The translations under genes and the position numbers were made by a program. Shown here in pieces: positions 2,907-32,772 of a DNA stretch of 37,679 nucleotides. Each line of letters begins with the position of its first letter. Positions within the stretch are counted from its first letter, which is position 1. The stretch spans positions 1 through 37,679 of IMG/VR virus record IMGVR_UViG_3300042556_000884. One strand, 5' to 3'. Origin of the DNA: a virus. The notes beneath the pieces are model-generated. The model had not been told where the DNA came from and did no database searches. It was given only the letters and a program-made list of their open reading frames with translations.

Positions 2907-2931
2907 CTTAATTCTCCGCCTATACTCTCTC

Positions 2932-3612
2932 TTACCAGTCTACGCTGCTGCTTGTTGATGAAGACTCTCGTTCTTCTTGAGATGATTCACCTGTATAAAA
3001 TGATGCTTGCTCTGAGTATGGTACGCTACGAACTGCTGTCTTGTCCAAATCAAACAACTCGACAGAAGAAAAGTCAAATGGCTTTTCATCTTTAGCTGCA
3101 GGGATAGGGATAATTGTGTAGCTAGTGTCTGTTTTTGTTCCAGACCTCTTTATTTGCCATGTTAGGTTGGTAATACTTCCAGTTAGCTCAGCATATTCAG
3201 CTACTGTTGGAGTTATTGTCTTACCGCTAATTCCCTGTGAAAGAATTGCAACGTATGGATCATTTTTTCCATCATTTACTAAAACGTTAACATACATTCG
3301 TTTTTTGGCATTCCAGTTGGTCTTTGGATTTGATCTATTTTGTTCACAGCCGTAGCATCTGCCTTCATCATCAAAGGAGCATAAAGCTTTTCGTCTGTAA
3401 TCCTTTGGGCTTGTATGTTCTACAGCAAAGAAGCCGTAGCCTAGCTTAGCGTCATAGTTTGGAGAATTTGGATCTAACTCCTGAAGAAATCTAATAATTA
3501 CCTTTTCTCCATCTTCAATCTTTAACCACTTTGCTTTACTATCTTCTCCATTTGAATATGAAGTCTTTTCCATGGCTCTTGCCATTCCTGCTAGTCCTAC
3601 GATTTTTGACAT
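2932..3612 (-). CDS. Single-stranded DNA binding protein, T4 gp32-like
   Basis: Predicted 226-residue ssDNA-binding protein that would coat the template strand for the adjacent polymerase, primase and helicase. A zinc-binding set is visible as H66-x11-C78-x7-C86-x2-C89, close in spacing to the H-C-C-C zinc site of T4 gp32; it sits in a core rich in aromatic and basic residues (RRKAL, NAKKRMYVNV). The C-terminus is a flexible acidic/serine tail (residues about 208-226, ending VDW), the usual place for protein contacts in phage SSBs. The ATG at 3610-3612 is chosen because AAGGAG lies 7 nt upstream; an upstream in-frame start would add 16 residues but has no such site. The leader contains inverted half-sites (see separate entry). 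Function is inferred from motif layout and replication-gene context. Confidence 0.8.
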   Translation of the reverse strand: MSKIVGLAGMARAMEKTSYSNGEDSKAKWLKIEDGEKVIIRFLQELDPNSPNYDAKLGYGFFAVEHTSPKDYRRKALCSFDDEGRCYGCEQNRSNPKTNWNAKKRMYVNVLVNDGKNDPYVAILSQGISGKTITPTVAEYAELTGSITNLTWQIKRSGTKTDTSYTIIPIPAAKDEKPFDFSSVELFDLDKTAVRSVPYSEQASFYTGESSQEERESSSTSSSVDW

Positions 3613-12300: not shown

Positions 12301-12743
12301 ACAAAAGTTCTGCTTCTTGAAGCAAGGGTCTCAATATTCTGCCAATCTTGACCATCTCTTCCCCACAAAAATGTTGTAGCAGTACTTCCTTGAGCAATAG
12401 ATGTAGATCCAGGTCCCATCTCTGCAAAGTCGCCCACTACTGTACCAGTATAACTATCATACCTTATTGAAGCGGAGGTCTCAGGATATGGCTGTCCAGC
12501 AAATTTACCAAAGATCTTTTGCCATGTTCCAGAAGAAGTAAATCTGTATAAGGCTCTAATTCTTCTCCAGGATCTCGTGTCATCCGTATATCTTCCTGGA
12601 ACTGTAGTTAAACTAGCTGTTTCGTTATCGCTAGTCCTTCTATACATATTTTTATGCTTGCGCCAATGTTTTGAAGAATCTGTAAAATTTGATGCTGGTG
12701 TATTTGGATAAGATGATGGAGTTGTTTTTCTATATATTCCCAT
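9327..12743 (-). CDS. Large tail fibre / minor tail protein with Ig-like and nidogen-like domains
   Basis: 1138 residues, Ser/Thr/Gly-rich and beta-structured, as in receptor-binding fibres. The N-terminus holds a twofold motif: TDSSKHWRKHKNMYRR and TDDTRSWRRIRALYRF, perhaps the virion-anchoring part. Residues about 570-710 (YVSTNGYINWGG, IAPLNGDLRQG, WVTWWGNY, ARYQVKFYW, ADVYIVNN) resemble a nidogen-like (NIDO) adhesion domain. Residues about 757-838 contain a YQWQ Ig-like domain, with further beta-sandwich repeats to the C-terminus. The ATG is 1 nt after the upstream stop codon. These folds are known in surface adhesins, so binding to the host envelope is the likely job (inference). No enzymatic motif was found. 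Confidence 0.85.
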   Translation of the reverse strand: MGIYRKTTPSSYPNTPASNFTDSSKHWRKHKNMYRRTSDNETASLTTVPGRYTDDTRSWRRIRALYRFTSSGTWQKIFGKFAGQPYPETSASIRYDSYTGTVVGDFAEMGPGSTSIAQGSTATTFLWGRDGQDWQNIETLASRSRTFVQASTPVAETAQPITNDEGNFDGDKLRNSESVILQYDGKYVWYRDRITLSNGSTGTSYSQPVRIIKQQPVINNLAFKTNNDVSAGERKDVSFSIANQWYRSIDKTNSMFRWYILDSQYETPTQSKLWNSTSVSSVILTENTTVLTGEDFFTIPTTFGGVSTTGKWLHVELRLKNSSSDTDLDYALAPYNDVTDYVVAQIGASMPSFTYSLTNISSVTTPSAPVQQRVSATSNTVLIEMSSSFPSDTESYELWSYGAGSSAGGTLADPSVQTVSTLNQYNSSGNFVPTGGSFDTVTNISSTASNSPISTFTKAIGTSRALRFNVSSTSGAQSWKINYTISGASSGNGTFALNTNSMPASITISGAANPTVTITGVTAYSDLNQMGATKAGTAGSQVSLSTITKPVAFSTTSTSNYTFYTNVQVTGSQRRITLPSAFTSGTNIYVSTNGYINWGGIEEQSDPFGSVTIPSFNKSGITIAPLNGDLRQGAVSATSNTSTGGLWVFADATNYWVTWWGNYYTDATQVARYQVKFYWNQSYADVYIVNNSLTTITPSIVAVQNGATVSQSWSSTTAQTSTLLPTASMNRISTQDGVDDNRTLIAAIASQPPTGGTTTVSPSSGAVGTAFSAETSGWSGAQPITFGYQWQALNRFGFYWETLSTASTFTPTEAQRSNALSFRLVLTASNGISPNGTTLTSFSVTQAAVIPTISMLANSGISQTAGTINWSSTNQNTWSSTGTFSGSGSSEKTLSKTALVAGTTYTGTVTVTSVTGNTASANYSLTTTAAASVPVNISVPTLSGGLAVGTTFTFGVGQWLGSPTSYDLRLYRGTAFVATSETLVKSAGNVTSSTYVIPPSDFNDSNNRKYYRAFATATNAAGTSNNGTFTAGEELGPITSAPATPAPVLSTITGDNSLVLGGTFSWSFTNSPTAYSVFCTGPTGTVFTTSNAYSYSGTTFRPGYDGNGWQGPGDYTIYVSARNAGGDSAVASFTKSMS

Positions 12744-12744
12744 A

Positions 12745-15700
12745 TTAGTCTACCGTCATCCATATATCTCCCGCAACAAAGGGTACAGTATCGTACCGTG
12801 ACAATTTGCTATTATAAATTTGTCTTGACTGGTTAGCTACGGTAGGTATAGTCGTTCCTCCATAATGAAAGGCTCTTCCTTTTGTTAATTGTGCATTTTG
12901 ATTAAGTACAACTGTCGCATCTCCACCATAGTTATTATCATCTCCAAATATTATATTAGATGCTCCTGTAAAACTTAATGTTGCTCCATTTAATACAACA
13001 TCACTAGTTCCACCACCATATGACAATGTTCCATTTCCAAGACTGAATGTAGTTCCAGATGTAAGCGACCCACCAAAATATGCATTGCCTGCTGTATCAA
13101 TACTAAATTTACCACTTGCAGTAGAAATTCCACCAGCTCCAATTGTTATTGCTCCTGCACCAGCTGTTACATTTCCTTCAAACGCTCCCGCTGTTGCTCT
13201 TATTGTTCCTTTTACTTCTAAAGTTCCTGTTCCTCTACTGGTCCATTTAACAAAAGCATTATTGTTTCCTATATTTAATGATGGGTACAATACTCCAGCT
13301 CCAGAGTCCCATCCAATATAAAATCCAGTTACTGTACTATCATATGAACTTTTAGCATAAGTATTGCCTGATTCTACAAATGAAGAATATATTCCTCTTC
13401 CTTGAGTATTTACTTTTAAATCTTCAAGCAGACCAGCATTTACACCAGTACCAAATCTATCTTCATAGTTTGTAACTTTTGCTAATGCTGAATTAGCTTT
13501 CTCTATTGCGTCTGTAGCATCTGCGTCTGCGACTATTACCCAGGATGAGCCGTCATACCTATAAGGCTTATTTTTATTAGAAGAGTTTATCCACAAATCT
13601 CCAGAGACAAATGATTGTCCTGATAGATTAGGTCTAGTTGGGGTTGTTAATTGTGTAGCATAAAATGTTCTATTCTTTAAATTAGCTATTGTTCTTGCTG
13701 ATTCTGAATCTTGTGCTATCGTCCATGCTGGTGGATTAAGTGTAGTATTCCATATCTTTAGAATATAGTTGTTTCCAGTATCAACCCAAGCATCTCCACT
13801 CTTATGTCCTGTAGCAGGAACTGGGGGAGTACTTGATGAATAATAAATTTTAGATGTATCATTTAATAGTCCGCCAAGTGATGAACCCTCTTGTACTGTA
13901 ATCTTTCCAGATATTATTGCTCCCGTAGCATAAAGTTGACCATCTGCATTTACCTGGAAACCAGCTTGTCCGCCTACTGTAGAACTATTTATTGCTGGAG
14001 TATTGGTTGTACCAGCCCACAAAACAATATCTGAGCCATCAGTAGCCCTTGGCCTTATTCCAACATAAGAGCCACCATTTGTAGCAATAATAGATGTAGA
14101 AGAAGCATTTGATCCAGATGTTAGAGTTATATTACTTGAAGATATTGTATTTGGCGCTACAGTCCAATTTCCTATTCTAGCTCTATCTGTTCTAAAAGTA
14201 GGAGCGTTAGCTTCAGCATTTGAAATTATTTGTGTTGTTTCTGCCCCACTTGCATCGTAAGCATAAAGTCCTAGATAATTTAGATTCACTCTGTTATTAG
14301 AGTTAGCTACAGTTCTGGCAATTACTGATCCGCCGCCAGTCATTGTTAAGTTGCCAGTTATGCTTCCTGAAGCAGCATTTATTTCTCCTGTTACTTTTAG
14401 AGTTGCACCCTCCCAAATTAAATGATTAGAAGCACTTCCTATTTTAATATTTCCAGAGCTGTACCAATAGTTGTTTGCATTTATATATAAGCCATCGGTT
14501 CCCGTTGCTCCGCCAGCTGAAGTTCCTATCTTCATTGTTCCATTGTTTACGGTCATAGCCCCATCAAAATTACCAGATGATGCTTTTATCACTCCATTAA
14601 CCGTTAAGCCCGCACCGTCAAAATACAGTCTATCTCTTAAAGAAAATTTTCCAGTAGTATCTAAATAAAAAGGAGTTCCTGGACTTGTTCCAGCATCTGC
14701 ATACGTACCAACTCCGCTATATAACTTAAATGGGCTAGCAGAAAGACCTGTTCCAGAAGCATCTATTTTTATAGCAGTATTTACAGTAGAAGTTGCAACT
14801 CCTGTTTGATTTGATAAAGACCCACTAGCTCCAGATCCACCAACCACAACAACAAATGTATTGGTTGTTGTGGATTGTATCGCAAAACTTGTAATATTAA
14901 ATGCTGTGTTGGACATACCAGTTACTGATACCAGTGTCCCGTTTCCAAATCCATGAGTATCAGAAGTTGTATATGTTATATTTCCTGCAGATACAGAGGC
15001 TCCTGTAACCACTGCAGACCTGGCACCTACAGTAATAACTTTATTTGCAAGTAAAGCTGAGGAGTTTACTTGGTCTGCTGTTATTTCTCCAGCTCGTATT
15101 ACGTTTGCACGAATTGCATTTGCAGCAATATCTCCATTATCAATTGCAGATGGTATTCCTGAGCCCTGGGTTCCATAAGATGTTGCAGGACCATCTGCAT
15201 CTTTAGCTAATACTTTTACATAGTAAGTTGTTCCATATGTTAAGGAAGTTGATGTTCCTGGAAGAGTTTTTATTATTGCAAACGTTCCAGTAACCTGTAA
15301 AGCTAATGTTGATACTGAAGGAGTAAAATTATTTGTTGTGGATAAATGAATTTCATATGTTACAGGATCTGAATTTGTTATTGCTGTCCACTTAACTTCA
15401 AGTGCTCCGTATAAAGGATTTACTGTGGCTGCAGGGGAGCTGGAAGGTACCTGACCATCGGTAGGTTCAACTCCAGATACCGATACGCTACTGCTTTGAA
15501 CAGGATCACTAAGTGTTCCATACATATCTTGAGTTTGAACTTTAATGTAATATGATCCTGCAGATAGACCGCCAAATGATATATTTGTGCTAAAGGCAAA
15601 TTGTGTAGTAATTAAAACATCAGTTGATAAATCTTGCCACAGCTCTATCTTATACCTGTCAACTCTTGCTGGCTGAACTGATGGCGCTGTCCATGAGCCT

Positions 15701-17157
15701 AGAACTCCAGATGCTGCAGCAGTTAAAGAAACTGAACTTGGAGGATTTGCCGATAATGATTGTGTTACGCTATTTATATCTGAAGAAAATGCGCTCAAAT
15801 TATTTAGGCTATCATATGATGCTGCTGATATATTGTAGGTTGTATTTGGCTTTAGCCCGCCAAAAGTATATGGGGTAGTTGCTGCTGTATACGGAACAAT
15901 GTCTGTTTGGTAAAGGGTAGCGCCACTCTCTCTAAATCTTAATCTATGAGATTTAGTACTTGTATCTGAGTTAACAATATTAACAGTTATAGTTGATGAT
16001 GTTGAAGATACGAAGTTGACTGTGGGTACTGCTGGCGGAGTTTCATCTGTTGGATCAATTTTATCTGGAGTGACAGAAACTATATTGCTATACCCAGTAA
16101 GCCCTCCACGCACTCTAGAAAATCTTGCTCTTACTTGACGTGCAAGAGAGTTTGTAGTTGGAACATAAGCTGGATTTGAAGTATACGAGCCCTGATCTAC
16201 CCAAGTATCTCCGCCATCTGTGCTATCTTCTATGTATATCTTATCAAACTCGGAGTTATTTGTAAATGAAACAATATAGGACATAGGACCTTTTATTGCT
16301 GAAATAACTGGTGGTGTTAGTGGATCTACATATGCAGTCACATTGTATCCAACTACTGTGCTTGTTTGCAGATTTTTATCTCTTACAAAAATAAATGCGT
16401 CATAGTCTGTTTGAAATGCAGTTACCTGACCAAATATAGCTGCCAGTCGTCCTTCGGTAAATACAATCTTATGCTCTAATGGTGGAATTTTAGTTTTATC
16501 AACATTTGTATACAAAGTAATGTCTTTGCCATCCGCAATTAGTTGAACTGCAAACGAGTCAGCCATGCTGTTTTTAGGTAAATTTACAGGGAATTTCCAA
16601 AATAACACTAGATCTCTTTTAACCCATTCATGTCTAACTTCATAAACTGGATCTGGCTGCTCTAATAGAGTCACACAAAATTCATTTGAAAATGGTGAAA
16701 ATTTTCCATCTTTAGTTTCTGCCTGAAGTTTTACGCAGTATGTAGATACTTTTGTTGCATTGATCTGTATCGTTCCCGCCTTTGTAAAAAATGATGCATA
16801 GCGTACATACTGTTCTCCAAAATCTCCGCCTTTAATCCAGACATTAACTTGTTTAAATATTGAAGAATCATACGGAACAAGGCTGGAGTTTAATCCGCTC
16901 CAGTTGATGTATAGTATTGAGCTTATTGCATCTAAGTCTTGTTCTCTAAACTGTGGGGCCAGAAGGCCTTCTTGTTCAGGTGTTGTAAAATTATATGGAT
17001 CTGAAAAAGGGCTCGTGCCTTTGGTCTTATCTGAAAATACCCAGGCTGCTTCTAGAGAGTATTGAGTAGCAAAATCTAAATCGGATATCTCTACCTCCCA
17101 GTAGTCTCCGTCTTTACTCTGGGTAATTCTTCCTAAATCTTTATACTGTTCAGTCAC
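12745..17157 (-). CDS. Tail tip / central fibre protein with fibronectin type III domains
   Basis: 1470 residues. The N-terminal third and at least three consecutive fibronectin type III modules occupy about residues 1-665; the clearest modules start near 369, 469 and 564 (TTPYTFGGLKPNTTYNISA; GGLSAGSYYIKVQTQD; TYEIHLST). The C-terminal half has AGEITADQV, then repeated short strands rich in Gly/Asn/Thr (SGSITGNLTMTGG; IGNWTVAPNTISSS), as in J-like tail-tip and beta-helical fibre stems. Short GD-x-W repeats (GDAWVD, GDLWIN, GDIWM) recur toward the end. The start is set to GTG 17155-17157 because GGAG lies 6 nt upstream and the upstream stop ends 1 nt before; a TTG 12 nt earlier is possible but lacks an SD. 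Confidence 0.85.
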   Translation of the reverse strand: MTEQYKDLGRITQSKDGDYWEVEISDLDFATQYSLEAAWVFSDKTKGTSPFSDPYNFTTPEQEGLLAPQFREQDLDAISSILYINWSGLNSSLVPYDSSIFKQVNVWIKGGDFGEQYVRYASFFTKAGTIQINATKVSTYCVKLQAETKDGKFSPFSNEFCVTLLEQPDPVYEVRHEWVKRDLVLFWKFPVNLPKNSMADSFAVQLIADGKDITLYTNVDKTKIPPLEHKIVFTEGRLAAIFGQVTAFQTDYDAFIFVRDKNLQTSTVVGYNVTAYVDPLTPPVISAIKGPMSYIVSFTNNSEFDKIYIEDSTDGGDTWVDQGSYTSNPAYVPTTNSLARQVRARFSRVRGGLTGYSNIVSVTPDKIDPTDETPPAVPTVNFVSSTSSTITVNIVNSDTSTKSHRLRFRESGATLYQTDIVPYTAATTPYTFGGLKPNTTYNISAASYDSLNNLSAFSSDINSVTQSLSANPPSSVSLTAAASGVLGSWTAPSVQPARVDRYKIELWQDLSTDVLITTQFAFSTNISFGGLSAGSYYIKVQTQDMYGTLSDPVQSSSVSVSGVEPTDGQVPSSSPAATVNPLYGALEVKWTAITNSDPVTYEIHLSTTNNFTPSVSTLALQVTGTFAIIKTLPGTSTSLTYGTTYYVKVLAKDADGPATSYGTQGSGIPSAIDNGDIAANAIRANVIRAGEITADQVNSSALLANKVITVGARSAVVTGASVSAGNITYTTSDTHGFGNGTLVSVTGMSNTAFNITSFAIQSTTTNTFVVVVGGSGASGSLSNQTGVATSTVNTAIKIDASGTGLSASPFKLYSGVGTYADAGTSPGTPFYLDTTGKFSLRDRLYFDGAGLTVNGVIKASSGNFDGAMTVNNGTMKIGTSAGGATGTDGLYINANNYWYSSGNIKIGSASNHLIWEGATLKVTGEINAASGSITGNLTMTGGGSVIARTVANSNNRVNLNYLGLYAYDASGAETTQIISNAEANAPTFRTDRARIGNWTVAPNTISSSNITLTSGSNASSTSIIATNGGSYVGIRPRATDGSDIVLWAGTTNTPAINSSTVGGQAGFQVNADGQLYATGAIISGKITVQEGSSLGGLLNDTSKIYYSSSTPPVPATGHKSGDAWVDTGNNYILKIWNTTLNPPAWTIAQDSESARTIANLKNRTFYATQLTTPTRPNLSGQSFVSGDLWINSSNKNKPYRYDGSSWVIVADADATDAIEKANSALAKVTNYEDRFGTGVNAGLLEDLKVNTQGRGIYSSFVESGNTYAKSSYDSTVTGFYIGWDSGAGVLYPSLNIGNNNAFVKWTSRGTGTLEVKGTIRATAGAFEGNVTAGAGAITIGAGGISTASGKFSIDTAGNAYFGGSLTSGTTFSLGNGTLSYGGGTSDVVLNGATLSFTGASNIIFGDDNNYGGDATVVLNQNAQLTKGRAFHYGGTTIPTVANQSRQIYNSKLSRYDTVPFVAGDIWMTVD

Positions 17158-17158
17158 A

Positions 17159-18019
17159 CTAGACTCCAAACGACAGATCTAGTTTAAACTCTATCTTAGA
17201 TTCTCTTCCAAGGACCTTGATCATTGTTGAGTCAAGTATCGATCTGGCAATTAATCCGTATTCTGGGTCAAAGGTGTCCTCGTCATTTATTCTAAGGCCA
17301 TCCATAGATACAGATGTTTGAGCTGATGTTGGTGTAATTATTACTCCAACCTTACTAACGCTCTCTGGATTAAATGTTCCTGTTGTTACTCCGCTAGACA
17401 TAAATACAGACTTAATGTTATTCCCTACCGAATGACCAGAAAAAGTAAACTGTATATAGTCTGAATCAGAGCTGTAAAGTCTAACCTTTATAGAAGACAG
17501 GTTTGCATCATTTGCTTTATAGCAAAGGCACATTGTATCAAGTGGGTTATACCCAGAAATATCTAAATTTGACAGTGGATAAGTATACTCTTGTGGGGAT
17601 GTAGAGTTTGAAGTAAAAGTTAAAGAGCTATCTAAAACTCTGCTGTTAACTTGATCTAGCGCTGGCTCTGGAGTCCATTCATAAGGCAATTCGAAATTTG
17701 AAATAAACTTGCTACTATAAAGATGTCTAGCATATGATTGTCCAGAATATATACCAATCTCATTAATTTTTCCAGATATGTTTGTAGGAAGAGTAGCAGA
17801 AAAAATTACGGTATAAGTTGTTGGAGATGTTGTTGTATCAATATTAATTCCGCCTTGCCTAATTGGAACCCTATAGAATTCAAACCCTAATCTTGAGTTT
17901 GTATCAGATATTGGATACTCAGAATTTGTTGCAATACCCAAAGCCATCTCTTTTGAATCCAGAGAGGAGGTTCCTGCAATATAGCTAGTTAAAAATCTTT
18001 TTCCAAATTTTGTTATCAT
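17159..18019 (-). CDS. Minor tail protein
   Basis: 286 residues, mainly beta. The N-terminus (MITKFGKRFLTSYIAG) is followed by a FYRVPIRQGG and GKINEIGIYSGQ segment; such segments occur in phage tail proteins that act as fibre adaptors. The C-terminus ends ESKIEFKLDLSFGV. It starts in an ATGA overlap with the Gly-rich linker gene and ends 1 nt before the FN3 protein, so it is part of the tail tip cluster. No enzymatic motif; the role is taken from context. Confidence 0.75.
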   Translation of the reverse strand: MITKFGKRFLTSYIAGTSSLDSKEMALGIATNSEYPISDTNSRLGFEFYRVPIRQGGINIDTTTSPTTYTVIFSATLPTNISGKINEIGIYSGQSYARHLYSSKFISNFELPYEWTPEPALDQVNSRVLDSSLTFTSNSTSPQEYTYPLSNLDISGYNPLDTMCLCYKANDANLSSIKVRLYSSDSDYIQFTFSGHSVGNNIKSVFMSSGVTTGTFNPESVSKVGVIITPTSAQTSVSMDGLRINDEDTFDPEYGLIARSILDSTMIKVLGRESKIEFKLDLSFGV

Positions 18020-21644: not shown

Positions 21645-22234
21645 ACCTGCTCCAAAGTTATACTTACATCCCAATAAGTCTGAAGTCCTCTTTTTACAAC
21701 TGTAAAATCAGCAGATGTAAACATTACAGTATAGGTGTAGTCATCTACAAGAGCTCCGTCTGATTGCTCTATAAGATCTGTTGAAAAAACTGTTGGGTTA
21801 AGCTTTATTTTAAATGCTCCTCTACCAGCTACGCTTTCATAAAAATTCTTTATATCTTCTGCTCCCCAGCCACCATCAACTGTTTCGTTTCTAAAAGAAG
21901 GAAGCATGTCCCAAGAAGCGCTAACACTTATCTTGTCTGCAATAAAATACTTTCTCATAGTTCCATTTGACATTCTGGCTGACTGCTCAATTCTAGTGTT
22001 ATCTAATGTCAGTGGGCCTCTATTGTGCTCAGTAACTCTCCTAAATTTTGTCGTAGTTGTTTTATTAGCATACGCAAGGCCGTTTCTAGTTGCAGTTGTA
22101 GCATCATATTTATTTCCTGGAGCAGTTACTGTTGCTCCTTTGTAGTCAAATGTGTTAGTAGCTGGATCAATTGCAAATGGGTCTGGTGCTTCTATGTATA
22201 ATATTGACCCTTTAGATAGATTTTGAAAACTCAT
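21641..22234 (-). CDS. Distal tail (Dit)-like minor tail protein
   Basis: 197 residues, directly downstream of the tape measure gene, where siphovirus genomes usually encode Dit. The sequence is beta-rich (FRRVTEHNRGPLTLD, FIADKISVSASWDMLP, YTYTVMFTSADFTVVKRGLQTYWDVSITLEQV) with the final strands typical of tail-tube-fold proteins. The ATG at 22232-22234 overlaps the tape measure stop (TGATG); a GTG one codon earlier is also in frame. It is coupled by ATGA to the hub protein. Assignment rests mostly on position and fold impression. Confidence 0.75.
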   Translation of the reverse strand: MSFQNLSKGSILYIEAPDPFAIDPATNTFDYKGATVTAPGNKYDATTATRNGLAYANKTTTTKFRRVTEHNRGPLTLDNTRIEQSARMSNGTMRKYFIADKISVSASWDMLPSFRNETVDGGWGAEDIKNFYESVAGRGAFKIKLNPTVFSTDLIEQSDGALVDDYTYTVMFTSADFTVVKRGLQTYWDVSITLEQV

Positions 22235-25200
22235 CACCCACCAACCTTTCTATTTACTCCAGATGCCATTTCTTTAATTCTCATTTCTCTATGTATTTCC
22301 ATTGCAACGTCTTTTGCTGTTACTGTAGTTCCATTTAGCTCTACATTAATATTATATACTGATCCTGATGCTACTGCTGAAGATGTAGCATTTGGATTGA
22401 ATGGATTCATATTCGCTGGGATCACAGCTTCATTTTTATGAATTAACGCTAGCATATCTTGTGGAACCATATTGATTCCCGCCTTAAATTTAGGCAGTCT
22501 CATTCCTGCTGATTCAATTAATCCACCTAATGCTTTATGAGGTACTAATGTAGGATTTCTAAGCATTGCAAGTATTTGTGACTCAAGTGAGGAAGGTAGC
22601 TGTCCCTTACCCATCCTTTCAATAAGATCCTTAACCATTTGGCCAGTTACAGTATGCTTTTGTATTTGTGCAATTGAATTTTCTACCGTGGTGTAGGCTA
22701 TTGCATCGGTACCTAGCTGATCAAAATTTTCTACTCTAGTTGGGTTATCTGTTACCGATTTTCCTATTTCTGGAATAGCAACTCTTGTTCCATTTCTATG
22801 AATAATTGCCTTTATTCCATTTTCTGCTAGCCATGGAGAAATGTCGTCAAAATATCTTTGGAAAATCCTATCCCTAAGTGCTCCAGGGGCTGTAGCACGT
22901 GGATATCTTCCACCCTCTTGACCTATCAACATGCTTATAACATAGTCCTTAGATTGATGATCTTGAAGTTTAATTTTACCCGACTCTATGTCTCTTAATA
23001 ATTTTGCAAACACATAGGGCTGCTGTGAAGCTAGCGTGTTTGCATTATGTCTAAGGTCTATTACATCTTCTTTCTTTAATGCAGATGTAACAGAATAGAC
23101 TGTATTCTCTGGAGATCTCATAAGGTATGCTAAGGCCTGCCTGTAATCTTCTGCGGCAAACATCTGACCGCCGTACCAGCTGTCTAATCCAGTTCTATTT
23201 TTTAAATCAATTTTTCCATCTACCGTTGGTAGGTTTCCACCATGGAATAAAGATTTACTTAAAAGCTCTTCTACTGTGGATACTGATTTCGTCAATGGAG
23301 AAGTGTAATTAAATGTAGCTCTTAACTTTAAGCTGTCGGCAATTGACTCTGCAGTGTATTCGTCATGAACCCTTAACCCTTCAAAGCCAGGAACCTTCTG
23401 GTGTGCAAGAACTGCGACTTCGTGTTGAGTCAATGTTCTTGGGTCTGGTTTTTTCGCTAAATAATGTCTTGCAAGTATTTTTTTGTATGTTTCATATTCC
23501 CAAGGTTTTACTCTTGGTCCTGTACTCATAGTGCCTTTTGGTAAACCACTTACATCAAAACCATCAAACTGTCCTCTGAACATTTCGATTGGTGATAATG
23601 GTGGAGCTGCTGGTAGTGCTGCAGAAGCTGCGGCATTTGCAGCCATACGACTAGATGAACGCCATGGAGTTAAAAATGTTAATGCCCCAGCATAATCCAC
23701 AATCTTTCCAGCAGTAGGGTCAATTTTTCCAAGTGGGCCCTCATCTGTTTTATTGGTGACAGATCTATATACTGAAGGTATTCCTGTAAACTCTTGGAAA
23801 TCCTTATCTTGGACTTTAGTAGGCTTAGGTACTATGCCCTTTGTCAGGCTGCTTAGGCCAGTTTGCCCTAGGTACCCTGCCTGATTTATAATATCCATAA
23901 TCATTGATGATGCTGGATTTGTTCCACTATTCATTGCATTCTTAAAGAACCTAAATGCCTTTGTAATTGGATTTACATCATGCTTGTGACCGACTGCCCC
24001 ACCTGCGTGAAACATAAGTGGACCAAGTCCGTAGACACCGCTTCCAATGCCTCCCATAGAAGCTCCAGAGCCTGCGTAACGCATTGGATCCTTGTCAATA
24101 CCCATTCCTGGGCCGCTAGGCTTATTTGGCTGCTCAGTCATCTGATGCCAGTAATCTGAGCGATTGGCTATCTTTCCACTAAATGGAAGTCCTGGTATCT
24201 CTGTTCCGCCCCAAATGTCTTTACCCTTACTAGGACCGTATCTTAACTCTCCCCATCTTTGAGTATAAGGGCTGCCTGATGGTGTTCCATCACTCCAATA
24301 ATTTGGCATATCTTCAGAGTATGGAGACCATTTAAATTTAGATCCTGGTAAATTTCTTCCATGTCTATGCCCAACTGGACCTCCTTTATGTAATCTAAGC
24401 ACTTTATGCAGAGCATCTACAACGTCTGGTCCGCCAGCAGCGTCTACAGCTTTTGCACTAAATACATATTCTCCATCTGAAAGCATTGCTGGAATAGAAT
24501 CTGATGTTGCAGTTCCTTCGCCAAATACTTTTCCACCTTCATGGTAAGACTTTAATCTTCCGTTTCCACCTGGTAGAGCAGCAAACCATGCACCAACTGT
24601 TTTTCCATCCTTCGTAACTTTACCATTTGAATAGTAAATGTATCCGTTTGTATCCTGGTAAGTAAGTTTGCCACCATTTGCTTTAGCAAATTTTAAGTTA
24701 GCATCGGCATATCCTGTAAACTCTCTATTGTTTAGACCTTTTATAGGTACTATGAAAGTTTCTCCAGATACACCATTTGCGCCTTTAGGTGGTGCTACTG
24801 GTAGACTCTTATATTCTTTTTCTGATATCTCTCTGCCAGATGAATCAAAATATTTTTTAGGATCTCCTGGCATACCTGTTCCAGTAGTCTTTCCAGCAAC
24901 ACCAGTCTTTGATAATTTGTTTGGATTAACTCCTAAAGCTTGAAGCAAATCTACTCTAAGTCTATCTAAGTTAGTTTTACCACCAGTTATTTTTTCTGCA
25001 ATATCAGATACTGCCAACATATCTTTACTAAATTGCTTAAGAAGATCTGGGTTTATTATTGGAGATGGAGTTACAACTTTTCCATCTGGACCAATTGTTG
25101 GCATTCCAGATCCAGTCGTTGTCGGCGCTTTTGTTGTAAGGCTTACAGGCTTTCCATCTTTATCAAATAGTTTTAATTTTTGGAATCCTTCACGAACTGC

Positions 25201-28200
25201 TTTGGCAAGTGCTGTGTTTCCAGTTCCAGCTGTCTGAAGTTCTTTGGCTAGTGCAAGGAGACCTTCCTGCACTTTCTTTTCTTCTTTTATTCTTTGTGGG
25301 TCTGGCATAAGCTTTGCCTTTATTCCACGCTCAATTAACTCATTATATGATTGCTGGAAACCAACTAGCTTTTCAGAAACTTCTGCCGCTTGTGCTGCAT
25401 TGTCTGTAGCATTTTGATTAGCGTTATTATCTCTGTCAGCTTTATTTTGTATAGCATCGGCATCCTTTTCTAAAGGAGCCTTTGCTCTATTTGCTGCATC
25501 TTCTATTGCCTTTTGAGCAAGTTCTGATTGTCTATTTAAAGTAAGCTGATCTATTTCTAATTGAGCACGATTTGCTGTTGCCATATCTCCACGAGAGACA
25601 GCATCAGCATATTCAATCTGAAGTTTTTGTAGCTCTAGTGCATAATTTGATGCATCTTGAGTTGCTCTTAAAGACTCTAACTTCTTATTCTTTTCATCAT
25701 CAATAAGTTTAATTTTTTTAGAAATTAACTTTAATTCTTCTTGTGCGCTTCTTTGGGCTGCAGCTGCAGCTCTTTGAGAAGCGGCGCTAACAGAATTTAT
25801 CTGCTTCTTTAATTTTTCTAAAGCAGACCCAACGTTTCCAAAAGTAGTAGTGTCCCCACCCGCTTTAGTTAATTGAGTAATTCCTGAGCCAACTGCTTCA
25901 GAAAATCCAGCTAACTGAATTGCCAACTCTGGACCAATTTTGCTTAAATCATAACTAACGCCAGATGTAAATAAACTCCATTTTGCTAATATACTTTTTA
26001 CGCTATCTGATTTAGTTACAATTCCAGCCAACAGCTTGTTTGTCTTGCTAAGGTTATCATATGCCTCTTCACCAATTGGGGCAGTAAACCCTGGATACAT
26101 TTTTTCTGAACTAGACATGACCATGTCATAAGCCTTATAATCATCTATAACATTTCCCATTGCATCTTTTGTTCCAATTAAGCTTGATGTTGCTGCCTGG
26201 AAAGTATTTATCAATCCTTCAAATCCTACAGCAACCTCTTTATACCAATCGGCTGTTCCTGAGCCTTTGTTTAATGTGTTTATCAAGTTTCCAACAGCAT
26301 ACTCTGCAGCCGTTGCTTTGTCTACAATTTTTCCAAATGCACTGTTTCCTAGAATGTCATATGCCTGCATAGCCTTATTACTATTAAGCAATGCCCCATA
26401 TAGCTTTCTGTTTGCTTCTTCAACACTCATTCCGCCTGCAATATATTGAGCCTTTTGAGTTGATAGAAGTCTCTTTGTTTCTTCTGTACTAGTTGATCTA
26501 TTAATAGATTCAATAACTTCTTTTAAGGCCTTTCCTTCTTCTTTAGCCTTTTTTACATCTTCTACAGATTTAGGAAGTCCAGGCATTCCTATTGAATTAA
26601 ATTGTGATGCTTTAGCTGCAACTGCTACAGCTTTTTGCTTATCTAGATAGCCCTGCATTGTTTCTTGCAAGTTAAAGTATTTAACTCCTGCCTGTTCTGC
26701 AGCTTTTGCAGTCATTGAAAGACCCATTCTGGCATCCTGCCAGTCATCTTGAACTGCCTTATAAATTTTAAATCCTGCTGTTGCAACTGCTATAGCTATT
26801 CCAATTGGACCAAAGCCTTTTGCAAATCTGCCTAGTAAAGCAATTCCTGCTTTTAGGCCTTTCATTGTCATTGAGAATCCTTGTATTGCAGCTTTGGCTG
26901 AAGTTGCACCAGCTTTAACTGCAGTAAGCATTCTTGCCAAAGGAAGCATTGGAATTATTGAGGTAGCGGCCATCAATCCCATTCCAGCAGTCATTCCAGA
27001 CATTTCTGTTCCAAAAACTTTTACCTTTTCTTTTTGCATCAATGCCATGCCACCCATTGATCCAGCCATACCAATTCCCATTTGAGCACCCACGCTCATT
27101 CCATTGGCTCTTTGAGGTATTTTAACTCCCTCTGCTTTTGCCTGCTTTGCAGTCATGCTTACGCCATTAACTAGGTACTCTGTTCTTCTAAAACCTAGAC
27201 TTCCTACTTTTCTAGACTGTATTCCATCACCTAAATCTTTATATTTACCAATATACCCTGGGCCAAAAAATCCTTGTGGTGGGGCTTGTCCAACTGGATA
27301 TCTTGTTGCTGCATAAGCATTCTGCTCAGCTACAATTGAATTGTAAAACCTTGACCCAGCTGACTTAAGTCTTGAAGCTTGTGCTTTTGATGAAGCCAAA
27401 ACTTGACTTGATATAGCTTTTGTATAAGTAATTATTGTATTTGCTGCAGACTTTGTTCTATTAACAATAGACATTGCACTTTCTTTAGTTGACATAGAAA
27501 TATATTGTGCATTAAATTTTATAGCTTTTGCTAGCTGCATTGAGTCTCTTTTAATTGCATTTCCCATTGATGCAAATGCTGCGGTTATTGCGGATGTATT
27601 TCCTATTCCTGGAATATTCATTGGCATTGTTGGCATATTCATATGAGGGAATTGTGCAAGTCTCATCACACCAACTGTTCTGGCCATAGATTCAGTAGGA
27701 ACTCCAGTGTAAGCATTACCACGGACTCCAGTTCCTCCAACAAACGGAACACGTGCTACCTGCATCTGAGGGTTTCCAGTTGCTGTATATGAAGATCCAC
27801 TGCTTGGGTTATAAGCTGCGGCTCTCTCTGCTCTTGCTCTTTCTTGCGCTGCTCTTGTAGCTGGGTTACCTAGTCTTCTTGATCCATCTTTTTTGCGTCC
27901 ATAAGCATATCTGTTTCTTTGAACTGGACCTCCACCAACTGGTCCTCCAGCATTAAACTTAGGATTAGCATGCATAGAATGATATTTGGCCCAATCAACA
28001 TCCATGCCAGCTTCAAACCTTTCAAGCATAGCTAAATAAGGCTTTCTTTCTTTTTTAGGAATAGCAAGGATATATTTCTTTAATTCTGGATAAGCAGCTT
28101 TCATTTTTTCTCTTATGGCATCCCCATACTGCTTTGGAGTCATTTGTGCAATAATAGGAGCGGTGTCATGAGCAAAATCTTTTCTAGCCCCTCCACGAAC

Positions 28201-31200
28201 CTGCAGCAAATTGATCATTGCCATCTCTTCCATAGAAGGCATTGTTTTTGCATAGTCATCATTCATAGATGCCTTAGCTAATACTCCTCCATTTCCAACA
28301 TCAGCTAGTCGTCTTCCATGAACATTTGCTCTTGATAAATCTTTATTTCCAAAAATAAGAGATGCAATGAGCTGATCTAAAACTTCATCCTGACTAAATT
28401 TTCCAGCAACAGCTGTATTTGGGTTAATGAACCCTTCATCATAAGGTGATTCTGCACCAAAGAATTTTGACTTTCCAGTTGGGTCGAGGGGATTAGGAAT
28501 TGTTTTTCTAGTTTGAACTGGAGTAATAAGACCTAGTATTCTTCCTATTTCTGTTCCACGAGTTTCTGCAACTAAACTTTTTTCATTTGGAACCGCTTTA
28601 AAAAACACTCTGTTCTTTTGATCATCATCATAAACTCCACCAACTCCAGGTACAGGGAAACTACGACCTGTGCTTGGCGATAGTATGTGGCTATATGATG
28701 TATTTGGATATGGAGAGCGTCCTGTAAAGGACATTGAGCGGGCATGGCCTAAAACCTTTAATTGTTGACTTGGTGTTAATAACCTAAGCAGCGGAGCGAT
28801 GTTACCGTAGTTTAATCTATTTCTAGATATAGCCCCTCCTGGAATCATTCCACCAAGGTTGTAGCCAGCTGGTACAAGTCTAGGTGGTCTTCCTGGAATC
28901 CACTTTTGTCTTGTTGCTGCAGCTTGCAAGAACATGCTCCAAGAATCTCTTTGTTTTCTATTTGCTCTTATAACCTTACCAGATTCTATTTGTGCTTTGG
29001 TCTTAAATTTACCATCATCCATGACTGCTGCATACAAATCATCTACTGTTGCAAATTTATCCATTCCTGTTTTCTTTAAAGCTAATGCAAAATTATCTCT
29101 TGCATCTGCTCCACTTAAATTCAAAACATCTCTTGATAATCCAAGCACTTCAAGCCTGCTCATGATATTATTTATTCCTGAAGGCATAACTGCAGCAAGA
29201 CCCATGTAGCCGCTGGTCATATAACCAAGTGTGCCTCTACGTCTAAAGTGTGCTCTATCATGCAATCCTTGTATGATTGGCATTCCTTTACGATTTTTAA
29301 ATGTTGTTGGAGAAACATCTCTTATTAAATCATGGACTCCAGCAAAGCTTTTGTCAGCTAGCATTGCATCCCTGACCTTGTTTAAATTATAGTTAAGAGC
29401 CTTGCTACTGCTTGTCTCGGCAGTTCTAGCATTTTTAACTTTTAGCTCTTTATGCTTTTTTTCTAAATCTTGTACCTGTTTAATTCTTATCTTTACGAAT
29501 TTCTCATCAGATCCACCAGATTGCATTTTAGCAGAATCAAAATTAGATGTTGCTGTCTTTATAGCTTGATCCATAGGCATCTTTGCTGTATAAGATAGTT
29601 CTGCTGCGTCCAACATGATCATTCTTACTCTCATGTCATCTTCATATCGTGGGTTATTAATAAATCTTAAATATTCCTTGTACTGTTTTTTAAACAGCCT
29701 TTCATCCATTTTGCTTCCTGGAGTACTAGATGTTTTCTTTCCATATCCAGTAACACCAGCCATAATCTGCCCGCCAAAATTATATCCACTATTTGCTGCA
29801 TCTACGGCTGCATAAAGCTCAGGCATTCTTTGAATTTGTGGACCAAAGACAACCTCCCGTGGGGTAAGAGCTGCGGTAATGCTTCCACCATTATTCAAAT
29901 AGGTAGATGGAGCCATAGCAACTAAAGCAGCATTTGCTGGATCCATAGAAGCCTGCTGATTTAAAACATATCCACCAAGAGGGACCTCTCCCAACCTATC
30001 GTCATAGTTAACTGAAGATGGACCAGACACCATGGTTTTATTTGGGCCAAACGATTCTACGTCTCCTCCAGTATTAAATCTAGGCATTCTTGTTGTTTGA
30101 ATACTATATGGTGCGCCGAATGTTCTTACTCCACGAAGTCTTCCAAACTCTTCCATAACAGAGGCATTTGCTTTTTTCTTATAAAGATCTCTTAAAGTAA
30201 ACTGACCATTTGCATCAACAACTGGTTGATCCATCATCGGAGCTCTTGTTAAATCTAGCGTTCTTCCTCTGCCTGCAGCATACATACTCACCGCTGCACC
30301 CATGTCTGCCTCTATTTGTGCATTGAGTGCTAAGATCCTTGCCTTTGCCTGCTCAACTGTTATTTCTGCACTTCTCATTTGCTGCACAATTACTGCTGCT
30401 TGTGTTGCTGCACTATCTGCAAATCTTTGAGTTATTGGTAGTATGTCATCAAATGTGTCTAGTAGCTCTCTGCTTACTGTTCCACCCATGGCAATTGTTT
30501 TCTTTAATTCCGCAACCTCTTGCTTGGTTTGCATACCAAGTGTTGCCATCAAAGCGTGAAATTTAGCTGCTTCTCCTGGAACAATTCCTGTTGATATTCC
30601 TTTTATACTTGTTAGTCCTTCAATATTTGGAAGTCTATCATGCATGTATATTTGAGGGGTTCTTGATATTCCTCTGTTAACTGGAACTGCTCCTGGAACA
30701 CCACCAAATATTGTTGCAGGATTATTAGGGTCTCTAGGGTTAATATGAGACATTGCTCTAGTGTTAACATCTCCTACATAAGGATCATCGGGGTCAACAA
30801 CTCTTCTTCCAGCAACCATTACTGGTGCACCGCCAACTGTACTTACTCCTGGGTTTACAGGAACAGCATTTTTCATCGAAGCTGCTTGCAAATTTTGATA
30901 ATCTAAAACAAGTTTTTGTAATGCATTGTGAAGAACTTGAGCTGCTGCTGCATCTGAATAAAATGCGTTTTCCACCATTTCTGCTGCTTTTTGAGCAGCA
31001 ATAATTTCTGGAGTAAGCATCTTCCAGCCATTAGCTTTCATAAAGAATGCTCTTAGTTGAACAATACCCTTAGTTATGTATCCAAAGAAGTTAGCAAGAA
31101 CACCAGTTAACATAATAAGTGGTCCAACTAATGCTGTAAATCCTGCTAAGAAAGTAACTGCTTTTTTAATTGGGGATGGTAAATTACTAAAGAAGTCTAA

Positions 31201-32772
31201 TATCTTTGCTGCTGCATTTACAAGCTTTGTTGCAACTGGTAGGAAATCTTCTCCAATATCTGCCAGAGATGCTTTTAGGGATTCCATAGCTCTTCTATAT
31301 TTTCCAGAAGCGGATTCCGTTATCATTCCTAATTCTCGCTCAGCAATTCCTGCTAAATCTGAAGTGCTTGCTTTCATCAATTCCATAACCTGAAGTGTCT
31401 GGCTACCTTCCTTGCCTAGGTTATTAAGCAGGGCGCTCATTCTTGCAAACTGAAACTTTCCAAACATTTGCTCCATTGCTCTTGCTTTGCTTAACGGGTC
31501 AAGGCTGTCTAAAGCTTTTTGTAAGTCTGTTAATAAGCCTGTTGTGTCTCCAGTATTTTTTGCAACCATACCCATAACATCTATGCCAAAGTCTGACATC
31601 ATCCCGACAGTTTGTTTTGTTGGGTTTATAAGAGATGCAAGTCCAGACTTTAATGCGTTAGCACCTTCTGATGCATTAATTCCACCTTCTCGCATTGCTG
31701 TCAAATAAAGAGCTAGGTCTTTGACATCTCCGCCTAGTTGCTGAATTACTGGACCTGCTTTTGGAATTGCTTCTACTAAATCTGCAAGTGTAGTTGATGT
31801 CTGGTTTTCAACTGCGTTTAAAAAGTTAATTGATTCTGTAAGCTCTTCTGTATTCTGTTTAAATGCTGTTTGAATTGATAAAGTTGCCTTCATAGCATCT
31901 TGTCTATCAACTTCACCCAAAATAGAAAGTCTAGTGGTTTCTGAAATTGACTCTAAAAGATCGTTGCCCATCTTTCCAGTCGCTGCAATATCAGCACCCA
32001 ATGCAATTGTATCTTTAAATGAGGCTCCCATTGTTTGGGATAAAGACTTTGCTGTTTGCACAACCTCTTCTCTAATTGCTTTGAGATCTTGTGCAGATGT
32101 TGATGCTAGTCCTCCGTAAACCTTTGTTAATCTTACTAATTCAGCATCTGCTTCTCTAAATGCTTTACCAGCTGCCGCTCCAAACATTGTAAGTGGAACG
32201 GTTAATCCAACTGTTAGCTGTCTACCTGCCCACTGAGTATTCTTACCCCAGTTAATTAAAGATCCTGCTCCTTCAGACAATGCACGATTCATTATCTGCA
32301 TTTCCATTCGAGCTAGTTGTGCGCTATTTCTTACAGCATCTAAACCTCTAGGAATCATAACATTGTACTGCATTAAACCTTGAGCATTTCTACCCAATGG
32401 TTGAAGTACTGCATTCTGAAGCATTACCTGCTCTTTGGCAAGCTCCCTGATCATGCCCTTTTGTGTTGTAGCATGCTCTCTAAATGTTGAAAAATAGTTT
32501 TTAAGTTTTAATCTACCAGCGTCTAAGTTTTTACCAAACTTATCTACATCAGAATTAAGGTTTACAAAGTGGCTGGAGTACTGTCCACTACCAGTCAGTG
32601 TATCTCTAAATAAGTTATTTGCTAACTTTGTTGAAGCAGCTATTGCTCTGTTTGAAGAAAGAAGCTCTCTTTGTAATTGTTGCAGACTAGCGCTAGCCCT
32701 GTGTACTTCAGACACAAGGCTAGACAAGTCGGCTTTGGCGACTATACTGGTTACAATTTGTTCGTCAGCCAC
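22234..32772 (-). CDS. Tape measure protein with embedded enzyme-like modules
   Basis: 3512 residues; it sets tail length and is injected with the DNA. N-terminal coiled coils lead into a conserved tape-measure domain at about 190-420 (SQTMGASFKDTIALGADIAA, AIPKAGPVIQQLGGDVKDLA). Hydrophobic segments lie near 540 and 1890-2000, and a long coiled coil near 2310-2460. Two regions look like inserted enzymes: a HipA/PI-kinase-like module around 1360-1600 (K1392, E1403, D1478, N1483, D1491) and an ADP-ribosyltransferase-like module around 3170-3340 (H3177, GGQMFAAEDYRQALAY at 3201-3216). Short aromatic-x-x-Gly-Gly motifs recur throughout. The start is GTG at 32770-32772 in a TAGTG overlap with the chaperone fusion. 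At about 0.15 nm per residue the maximum tail length would be near 530 nm, less the globular inserts. Confidence 0.95.
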   Translation of the reverse strand: MADEQIVTSIVAKADLSSLVSEVHRASASLQQLQRELLSSNRAIAASTKLANNLFRDTLTGSGQYSSHFVNLNSDVDKFGKNLDAGRLKLKNYFSTFREHATTQKGMIRELAKEQVMLQNAVLQPLGRNAQGLMQYNVMIPRGLDAVRNSAQLARMEMQIMNRALSEGAGSLINWGKNTQWAGRQLTVGLTVPLTMFGAAAGKAFREADAELVRLTKVYGGLASTSAQDLKAIREEVVQTAKSLSQTMGASFKDTIALGADIAATGKMGNDLLESISETTRLSILGEVDRQDAMKATLSIQTAFKQNTEELTESINFLNAVENQTSTTLADLVEAIPKAGPVIQQLGGDVKDLALYLTAMREGGINASEGANALKSGLASLINPTKQTVGMMSDFGIDVMGMVAKNTGDTTGLLTDLQKALDSLDPLSKARAMEQMFGKFQFARMSALLNNLGKEGSQTLQVMELMKASTSDLAGIAERELGMITESASGKYRRAMESLKASLADIGEDFLPVATKLVNAAAKILDFFSNLPSPIKKAVTFLAGFTALVGPLIMLTGVLANFFGYITKGIVQLRAFFMKANGWKMLTPEIIAAQKAAEMVENAFYSDAAAAQVLHNALQKLVLDYQNLQAASMKNAVPVNPGVSTVGGAPVMVAGRRVVDPDDPYVGDVNTRAMSHINPRDPNNPATIFGGVPGAVPVNRGISRTPQIYMHDRLPNIEGLTSIKGISTGIVPGEAAKFHALMATLGMQTKQEVAELKKTIAMGGTVSRELLDTFDDILPITQRFADSAATQAAVIVQQMRSAEITVEQAKARILALNAQIEADMGAAVSMYAAGRGRTLDLTRAPMMDQPVVDANGQFTLRDLYKKKANASVMEEFGRLRGVRTFGAPYSIQTTRMPRFNTGGDVESFGPNKTMVSGPSSVNYDDRLGEVPLGGYVLNQQASMDPANAALVAMAPSTYLNNGGSITAALTPREVVFGPQIQRMPELYAAVDAANSGYNFGGQIMAGVTGYGKKTSSTPGSKMDERLFKKQYKEYLRFINNPRYEDDMRVRMIMLDAAELSYTAKMPMDQAIKTATSNFDSAKMQSGGSDEKFVKIRIKQVQDLEKKHKELKVKNARTAETSSSKALNYNLNKVRDAMLADKSFAGVHDLIRDVSPTTFKNRKGMPIIQGLHDRAHFRRRGTLGYMTSGYMGLAAVMPSGINNIMSRLEVLGLSRDVLNLSGADARDNFALALKKTGMDKFATVDDLYAAVMDDGKFKTKAQIESGKVIRANRKQRDSWSMFLQAAATRQKWIPGRPPRLVPAGYNLGGMIPGGAISRNRLNYGNIAPLLRLLTPSQQLKVLGHARSMSFTGRSPYPNTSYSHILSPSTGRSFPVPGVGGVYDDDQKNRVFFKAVPNEKSLVAETRGTEIGRILGLITPVQTRKTIPNPLDPTGKSKFFGAESPYDEGFINPNTAVAGKFSQDEVLDQLIASLIFGNKDLSRANVHGRRLADVGNGGVLAKASMNDDYAKTMPSMEEMAMINLLQVRGGARKDFAHDTAPIIAQMTPKQYGDAIREKMKAAYPELKKYILAIPKKERKPYLAMLERFEAGMDVDWAKYHSMHANPKFNAGGPVGGGPVQRNRYAYGRKKDGSRRLGNPATRAAQERARAERAAAYNPSSGSSYTATGNPQMQVARVPFVGGTGVRGNAYTGVPTESMARTVGVMRLAQFPHMNMPTMPMNIPGIGNTSAITAAFASMGNAIKRDSMQLAKAIKFNAQYISMSTKESAMSIVNRTKSAANTIITYTKAISSQVLASSKAQASRLKSAGSRFYNSIVAEQNAYAATRYPVGQAPPQGFFGPGYIGKYKDLGDGIQSRKVGSLGFRRTEYLVNGVSMTAKQAKAEGVKIPQRANGMSVGAQMGIGMAGSMGGMALMQKEKVKVFGTEMSGMTAGMGLMAATSIIPMLPLARMLTAVKAGATSAKAAIQGFSMTMKGLKAGIALLGRFAKGFGPIGIAIAVATAGFKIYKAVQDDWQDARMGLSMTAKAAEQAGVKYFNLQETMQGYLDKQKAVAVAAKASQFNSIGMPGLPKSVEDVKKAKEEGKALKEVIESINRSTSTEETKRLLSTQKAQYIAGGMSVEEANRKLYGALLNSNKAMQAYDILGNSAFGKIVDKATAAEYAVGNLINTLNKGSGTADWYKEVAVGFEGLINTFQAATSSLIGTKDAMGNVIDDYKAYDMVMSSSEKMYPGFTAPIGEEAYDNLSKTNKLLAGIVTKSDSVKSILAKWSLFTSGVSYDLSKIGPELAIQLAGFSEAVGSGITQLTKAGGDTTTFGNVGSALEKLKKQINSVSAASQRAAAAAQRSAQEELKLISKKIKLIDDEKNKKLESLRATQDASNYALELQKLQIEYADAVSRGDMATANRAQLEIDQLTLNRQSELAQKAIEDAANRAKAPLEKDADAIQNKADRDNNANQNATDNAAQAAEVSEKLVGFQQSYNELIERGIKAKLMPDPQRIKEEKKVQEGLLALAKELQTAGTGNTALAKAVREGFQKLKLFDKDGKPVSLTTKAPTTTGSGMPTIGPDGKVVTPSPIINPDLLKQFSKDMLAVSDIAEKITGGKTNLDRLRVDLLQALGVNPNKLSKTGVAGKTTGTGMPGDPKKYFDSSGREISEKEYKSLPVAPPKGANGVSGETFIVPIKGLNNREFTGYADANLKFAKANGGKLTYQDTNGYIYYSNGKVTKDGKTVGAWFAALPGGNGRLKSYHEGGKVFGEGTATSDSIPAMLSDGEYVFSAKAVDAAGGPDVVDALHKVLRLHKGGPVGHRHGRNLPGSKFKWSPYSEDMPNYWSDGTPSGSPYTQRWGELRYGPSKGKDIWGGTEIPGLPFSGKIANRSDYWHQMTEQPNKPSGPGMGIDKDPMRYAGSGASMGGIGSGVYGLGPLMFHAGGAVGHKHDVNPITKAFRFFKNAMNSGTNPASSMIMDIINQAGYLGQTGLSSLTKGIVPKPTKVQDKDFQEFTGIPSVYRSVTNKTDEGPLGKIDPTAGKIVDYAGALTFLTPWRSSSRMAANAAASAALPAAPPLSPIEMFRGQFDGFDVSGLPKGTMSTGPRVKPWEYETYKKILARHYLAKKPDPRTLTQHEVAVLAHQKVPGFEGLRVHDEYTAESIADSLKLRATFNYTSPLTKSVSTVEELLSKSLFHGGNLPTVDGKIDLKNRTGLDSWYGGQMFAAEDYRQALAYLMRSPENTVYSVTSALKKEDVIDLRHNANTLASQQPYVFAKLLRDIESGKIKLQDHQSKDYVISMLIGQEGGRYPRATAPGALRDRIFQRYFDDISPWLAENGIKAIIHRNGTRVAIPEIGKSVTDNPTRVENFDQLGTDAIAYTTVENSIAQIQKHTVTGQMVKDLIERMGKGQLPSSLESQILAMLRNPTLVPHKALGGLIESAGMRLPKFKAGINMVPQDMLALIHKNEAVIPANMNPFNPNATSSAVASGSVYNINVELNGTTVTAKDVAMEIHREMRIKEMASGVNRKVGG

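Follow-up and report, generated by a model that had tools for sequence, protein, structure and literature searches.

Polyvalent proteins of phages and conjugative elements are large proteins that are predicted to be carried in the virion and injected, and which, according to the accessible part of their description, mix kinase, ADP-ribosyltransferase (ART), GNAT, peptidase, and peptidoglycan-attacking domains (PMC5512222). They represent the nearest concept in print to the element considered here, a predicted kinase module inside the tape measure protein (TMP) of the IMG/VR virus record IMGVR_UViG_3300042556_000884 (37,679 bases, G+C content of 38%), the whole of which was analysed and is referred to as the window. 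The likeness would lie in a mixture of effector-type domains in a large protein, the injection of this TMP being deduced from general TMP biology. The kinases of polyvalent proteins, as far as the accessible text goes, belong to the Ser/Thr/Tyr-kinase branch and have lost the C-terminal subdomain, whereas the module described here matches the HipA/FAM20/PI4K side; moreover, the word "tape" does not occur in that part of the text (PMC5512222), while the carrier here is the tail ruler.

A second parallel is provided by Tme and Sle1, effectors of Streptomyces contractile injection systems (CISs) that are related to tape measure proteins; in the accessible portions of the two accounts, a TMP-like protein bears a C-terminal functional domain that differs between relatives in the Sle1 group, also in an actinobacterial setting (PMC11126660, PMC13277306). 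However, these are described there as bacterial CISs and not as DNA-carrying phages, and the effector domains reported comprise an endonuclease in Tme, a ribosome-associated domain in Sle1, and a presumed nucleic-acid-acting domain in Micromonospora, not a kinase.

The small toxin-type kinases HipA, HipT, and CtkA resemble the module in overall fold in the structure comparison and in a set of five residues (K, E, D, N, D), which we take to be present in HipA, the register of the lysine coming from an hhalign alignment. Unlike them, the module lacks a HipA_C match, lies inside a giant structural protein, and has a spacing of 8 residues between the asparagine and the last aspartate. Searches of open-licence PMC full text yielded no description of a kinase inside a phage TMP, as judged largely by titles and the beginnings of abstracts (most subscription journals and preprints lie outside this collection); the term "tape measure" does not occur in the accessible part of PMC9503650, nor "kinase" in that of PMC12487901. 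What would be new here is the TMP as carrier, virion-borne effectors being a kind already known.

The carrier and the elements of the module are the following:

22234-32772, minus strand: TMP carrying the module, 3512 residues in a single open frame (Pfam and PHROGs profiles).
27958-28716, minus strand: kinase-fold module, residues ~1353-1605 (conserved block, AlphaFold2 model, structure matches, and HipA profile match).
28597-28599, minus strand: K1392, predicted ATP-binding lysine, in a strand of the model.
28564-28566, minus strand: E1403, predicted helix-C glutamate partner of K1392, in model helix 73-88.
28339-28341, minus strand: D1478, predicted catalytic aspartate.
28324-28326, minus strand: N1483, predicted metal-binding asparagine, five residues past D1478.
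28300-28302, minus strand: D1491, predicted metal-binding aspartate, opening the low-confidence model stretch 167-182.
28816-28860, minus strand: Gly-Gly linker N-terminal to the module (NLGGMIPGG...), read in the sequence.
27919-27960, minus strand: Gly-Gly linker C-terminal to the module (KFNAGGPVGGG...), read in the sequence.

By its N-terminal profile matches (Pfam PhageMin_Tail, 1.1e-25; PHROG tail length tape measure, phrog_10030, 3e-121) and as a giant open reading frame within the tail module, the product of 22234-32772 is identified as a TMP, which agrees with the carrier named by the initial annotation of the window. The five residues that this annotation had singled out were found exactly where it had put them, with their codon coordinates confirmed, and the Gly-Gly linkers it had noted are indeed present on both flanks. 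The module itself proved to be a discrete domain at the proposed site, with an extent (~27958-28716) slightly larger than had been noted.

Relatives of the module were gathered from IMG/VR in three scans, which yielded 5 loci, 18 loci, and then 161 relatives among 277 pattern-matching stretches (best 80 kept). The main alignment comprises the 92 distinct loci of these scans plus the window (93 rows; 41 sequences at less than 90% identity), and in every row the module sits in a long open frame, the shortest frames (1153-1219 residues) being cut by contig ends. K1392, E1403, D1478, N1483, and D1491 are unchanged in 93/93 rows, and this conservation was not built in, because most relatives came from a scan with peptide patterns around MTPKQY and V(K/R)GGA(R/K)K, and not with the catalytic residues. 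A wider set of 109 module-bearing loci, reduced to 71 unique segments plus the window, revealed no substitution at these positions either: D, N, and D are kept in 72/72 rows, and K and E in the 71/71 rows with letters there, one truncated segment being gapped at both. This set takes in the copy with the lowest score of those looked at, which sits at residues 2836-3100 of its TMP (L181). Invariant columns make up 38 of the 300 window positions in the 41-sequence alignment, and all five pre-named residues are among them; the chance of this for five random positions is ~2.6e-5, a rough figure, as Asp and Gly positions tend to be conserved anyway. The module occupies approximately residues 1320-1690 in the window's group and 780-1070 in a second group, the N-terminal part of which is only ~35-45% identical to that of the window.

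The kinase fold foreseen by the initial annotation was recovered by structure prediction. An AlphaFold2 model built on the 41-sequence alignment of environmental relatives (mean predicted local distance difference test, pLDDT, of 78.9; predicted template modelling score, pTM, of 0.78) places K1392 in strand 64-70 and E1403 in the next helix (73-88), followed by two strands, a helix, and then the catalytic loop, an order that gives a kinase-type arrangement. In a Foldseek search, three CtkA chains came out on top (E values of 1.0e-3, 4.7e-3, and 6.1e-3). A second aligner, VIA-align, which was run on the Foldseek candidates and warns that a Z score below 8 can mean merely a common arrangement, gave the best score to a CotH kinase (Z 10.0, 4.0 A, 213 aligned residues), followed by CtkA (9.7), PI4KIIalpha (8.5), PI4KIIbeta (8.4), Fam20C (8.3), MavQ (8.1), HipT (7.8), HipA (7.3), and actin-fragmin kinase (7.0), with classical kinases at 5.7 or less. 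When the predicted viral structures of BFVD were searched, the phage protein names retrieved were a PI3/4-kinase catalytic domain at rank 1, a portal at rank 3, and ADP-ribosyltransferases at ranks 4 and 5, with a PI3K/PI4K-domain protein of a haloarchaeal tailed virus at rank 7 (TMq of 0.28-0.45 in the top seven, a low similarity). The proteins A0A6J5MJB0, L7TJZ0 (HSTV-2), A0A6J5S481 (portal-named), and A0A6B9L6W7 (ART-named, Mycobacterium phage Onyinye) thereby share predicted PI3K/PI4K-like folds with the module (E values of 9.5e-5 to 1.6e-3), but none of the 50 matches listed, several of which are nameless, is named as a TMP. At the profile level, the module scores 26.8 against a profile of nine HipA proteins, a value that none of 150 column shuffles reaches (mean 15.7, maximum 24.7; reversed profile, 20.0), and hhalign aligns its VFFK with HIIK 178-181 of Escherichia coli HipA, where K181 is presumably the ATP-binding lysine. 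This match may be taken as support in the right register rather than as proof, being weak in absolute terms. As modelled, and among the kinase families present in the structure lists, the module very probably has a protein-kinase-like fold of the HipA/FAM20/PI4K side. Neither of the two outcomes that the initial annotation had named as refuting its reading, a model lacking this type of fold or free substitution of key residues in homologues, was observed.

Several results pull in the opposite direction. The Foldseek TM-scores are near 0.4 with no E value below 0.001, the hits below CtkA are mainly classical kinases (CotH appears only at ranks 36 and 41), and the VIA-align Z scores of 8-10 lie just moderately over the background of the aligner, the list being coherent and the values not high. 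The hhalign probability of the module-HipA match is below 4%. A Pfam scan of all 41 members with E values up to 1 gave 18 weak families, none of them a protein or lipid kinase; a PHROG scan of the same members found no kinase family; and sequence searches of the PDB returned nothing beyond weak matches to unrelated proteins, among them uteroglobin, a sugar-binding protein, and succinyl-CoA ligase. One of the weak Pfam matches was to PNK3P, a phosphatase model (0.21). The PI3/PI4 kinase, CotH, and polyvalent-protein kinase families are, we assume, all represented in Pfam. The HipA_C model (PF07804) has no match in the window record, while the same model matches in 4 of 14 control genomes. Nothing was found by tblastn with module queries from the window and two relatives (L007 and L004) among 50,697 isolate phage records, and a pattern scan of genome contigs matched 55 stretches, none of them a relative. 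The lack of a sequence-level kinase match in Pfam, PHROGs, or the PDB is what would be expected if an ordinary tape measure stretch happened to hold kinase-like letters; nevertheless, the predicted fold, the invariance of the five residues, and the discrete gain and loss described below make such a chance resemblance highly improbable.

The weakest part of the model is the metal-binding loop, where residues 167-182, starting at D1491, fall below a pLDDT of 50, and the spacing between N1483 and D1491 is short. Both features would suit a pseudokinase or a nucleotide-binding scaffold, with the fold being kept for binding or mechanical reasons in the tail and no phosphotransfer taking place. Pseudokinases, however, rarely keep all five catalytic positions, and these are invariant here; this alternative is regarded as improbable. 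The module is quite probably an active phosphotransferase. The module is under purifying selection, with a ratio of nonsynonymous to synonymous substitution rates (dN/dS) of 0.13 between the window and either L003 or L001. In the comparison with L003, the value is 0.34 for residues 1625-2000 and 0.42 across the variable C-terminal slot described below, where the alignment is poor (25% identity); that of the first 1310 residues is 0.06-0.09, and the fact that the module lies above the parts of the TMP preceding it counts against the reading of the module as a delivered kinase. Protein would be a likelier substrate than lipid; CtkA, CotH, and Fam20C presumably act on proteins, and PI4K and MavQ on lipids, an assignment taken partly from the titles of structure entries.

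The distribution of the module shows that it is a discrete, swappable cassette, gained and lost independently of the ruler. In another scan, which used the N-terminal part of the TMP, at least 579 relatives were found; the best 80, those nearest to the window and not a prevalence sample, include 11 with the module, 41 complete TMPs without it, 26 cut too early to tell, and 2 in which over 1400 residues follow the N-terminal domain with no module among them. The module is present in 103 of the 172 open reading frames with this N-terminal part that were gathered overall, a share inflated by the module scans. The 41 complete kinase-less TMPs align to the window from residue 1 to ~900-1300 with 48-62% identity, and 37 of them realign from window residues 1814-2049 on, skipping the module; two of the 41, L137 (1022 residues) and L154 (1179 residues), may be broken frames. 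At least 6 gains or losses are required on a tree built from the N-terminal parts of 76 TMPs (38 with and 38 without the module), 5 of them forced by well-supported branches, compared to 25.8 in shuffles, and the minimum remains 6 after dropping L137 and L154. The exchange can be followed in the pair L175 and L173, which are 84% identical over residues 1-1006 and 54% identical from L175 residue 1573 onward: residues 1007-1572 of L175, module included, replace ~170 residues of L173, with Gly-Gly motifs around both edges of the swap and a 72-residue stretch within the L175 segment (1259-1330) that matches L173 at 40%. Median TMP length is 2162 residues for the complete kinase-less proteins (n = 41) versus 3248 for complete unique proteins with the module (n = 58). 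PGE(A/F)V motifs recur close to Gly-Gly linkers, at least two in each protein, in TMPs such as L173, L175, and L078, and possibly mark module boundaries.

Since kinases need ATP, the module would act in the cytosol, either of the producing cell or of the new host after ejection. In the former case, the kinase would work during assembly by phosphorylating, ahead of tail closure, the TMP itself, tail chaperones, or proteins of the tail, and would then travel in the virion as a passenger. In favour of such a role, TMP synthesis takes place in the ATP-containing cytosol, and the catalytic residues are conserved in every aligned copy; on the other side stand the 41 complete related TMPs without the module, the changes on the tree, and the outcome of a neighbour-gene test. 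This test, crude and ignoring kinship, covered 144 loci, of which 113 were usable upstream (80 with and 33 without the module) and 98 downstream (63 and 35), and gave no convincing partner gene for the kinase. Antisense frames dominate its top families, and the small number of sense-strand families that differ between the groups (e.g., 24 versus 0, and 56 versus 33; p ~9e-5 each) look like lineage markers. An assembly kinase is therefore considered unlikely, and cargo fits better than an assembly factor because of the repeated gain and loss without loss of the TMP, the Gly-Gly-edged swap, and the hydrolase, protease-like, and ART-like company of the module in relatives.

On balance, the module is probably a genuine atypical kinase cassette of the HipA/FAM20/PI4K type, borne by a phage TMP and delivered into the host as an effector, a role that gains weight because TMPs exist without it and because the TMPs of relatives carry other enzyme-like modules. 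TMPs are thought, according to the accessible parts of two accounts, to be released at infection and to help the DNA across the envelope (PMC11126660, PMC7824862). We infer that the TMP would be built into the tail and, at infection, would leave it with or ahead of the DNA; the module would pass unfolded, or sit at the tail tip, and then refold on reaching the host cytosol, with its supply of ATP. In this compartment it could phosphorylate a host target, or transfer a nucleotide phosphate to it, early in infection, and in some phages other enzyme modules of the C-terminal slot may act alongside the kinase. An obstacle to this delivery route is that a folded kinase of ~28 kDa is probably too wide for the tail tube of a siphophage, which means that delivery would need unfolding.

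The C-terminal slot and a further segment within it are located as follows:

22504-24360, minus strand: variable C-terminal slot of the TMP, residues ~2805-3423, which differs from phage to phage.
22702-23559, minus strand: ART-like segment, residues 3072-3357 (LFHGG ... YGGQMFAAED), proposed from motif resemblance by eye.

For most of residues ~2960-3360 of the window TMP, only 2-4 of 92 relatives give a match, versus 92/92 for the kinase, and the unmatched C-terminal tails in the window's group range from 51 to 1928 residues, excluding L001, which matches the window to its end. Among nine slot tails scanned with Pfam, CHAP domains scored above the cut-off in L003 (5e-13) and L031 (7.5e-13), LysM plus CHAP (L025) and GNAT plus SprT-like (L057) appeared below it, and five others, including that of the window, gave nothing convincing. 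L003 and L031 combine the kinase module with CHAP in one TMP; the candidate second effector-type domain of the window is an ART-like motif only. Copies of this ART-like segment are 82-100% identical in five loci (L094-L098); its AlphaFold2 model, built on four close sequences, has a pLDDT of 38.1, Pfam is silent on it, and the likeness is one of motif. Another ART-like stretch was seen by eye in L017 and L078. HExxH motifs occur in the slot (beyond position 2800) of 7 of the 58 complete unique module-bearing TMPs. Slots with such motifs were noted in L003, L031, L033, L043, L057, L063, and L104, some as HELGH, like zinc metalloproteases. The slot of L043 holds a CHAP by motif, not by Pfam, and that of L062 a GNAT acetyltransferase-like segment by eye, for which Pfam has no GNAT match. 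Past the module, the TMP of L005 holds SSHIIPKSKID...LDNLMLDTN, a stretch resembling an HNH nuclease motif, after which comes a GPKGAGDIVPAMLAPGEAVIP segment of a type seen repeatedly in these TMPs.

The C-terminal part of other TMPs bears a second kinase-like family (K, E, DxHxGN, IDFG), with 7 unique copies, whose residues are kept in 7/7 by eye; it was seen in L022, L024, L031, L146, L179, L180, and L181. L181, with a TMP of 4557 residues, has two of the copies beside the module, which makes three kinase-like units. The hhalign probability between the module and this second family is 12% with 3 sequences and 2-5% with 7, and none of 150 shuffles reaches the score; a single family is not claimed on so weak a relationship.

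A broader proposal follows the same lines. It concerns a large set of environmental phages whose TMPs are akin to the ones found in phages of Streptomyces and Gordonia, and in which the TMP would serve to carry effectors in modular form, combining a constant ruler with swappable enzyme cassettes (up to three kinase-like ones, as in L181); this would represent a tail-borne counterpart of polymorphic toxins and a phage-side relative of Tme and Sle1. The chances for and against this proposal are evenly balanced. The slot modules other than CHAP were recognised by motifs, and the second kinase-like family shows no signal against the HipA profile (0.2%), two points that weigh against the delivered-effector explanation. 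TMPs are usually viewed as passive rulers and as channels for DNA entry. Should they also bear swappable enzymes that act on the host, the length of a TMP would reflect more than that of the tail, a kinase could be at work from the first moment of infection, ahead of phage gene expression, and the TMP-like effectors of CISs would gain a phage-side counterpart. The L175/L173 pair and the 41 kinase-less TMPs offer ready comparisons.

With respect to the carrier, residues 25-1091 of the TMP used as a query matched 322 isolate phage records, all with less than 60% identity and most often from phages of Streptomyces (126) and Gordonia (105); the matches lie in part of the first third of the protein and extend over ~600 residues among the 30 listed. 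A region ahead of the kinase is located as follows:

28843-29400, minus strand: region before the kinase, residues 1125-1310 (matches of kinase-less TMPs).

The N-terminal match stops short of this region in 37 of the 41 kinase-less TMPs and reaches into it in the other four (L160, L117, L153, and L133). Beside the tail genes, two large proteins of 1138 and 1474 residues are encoded on the minus strand (9327-12743 and 12745-17169), both without a PHROG match at 0.001. Past the TMP, the gene order of the window continues with tail proteins and then with the replication genes for a single-strand binding protein, a primase, and a helicase.

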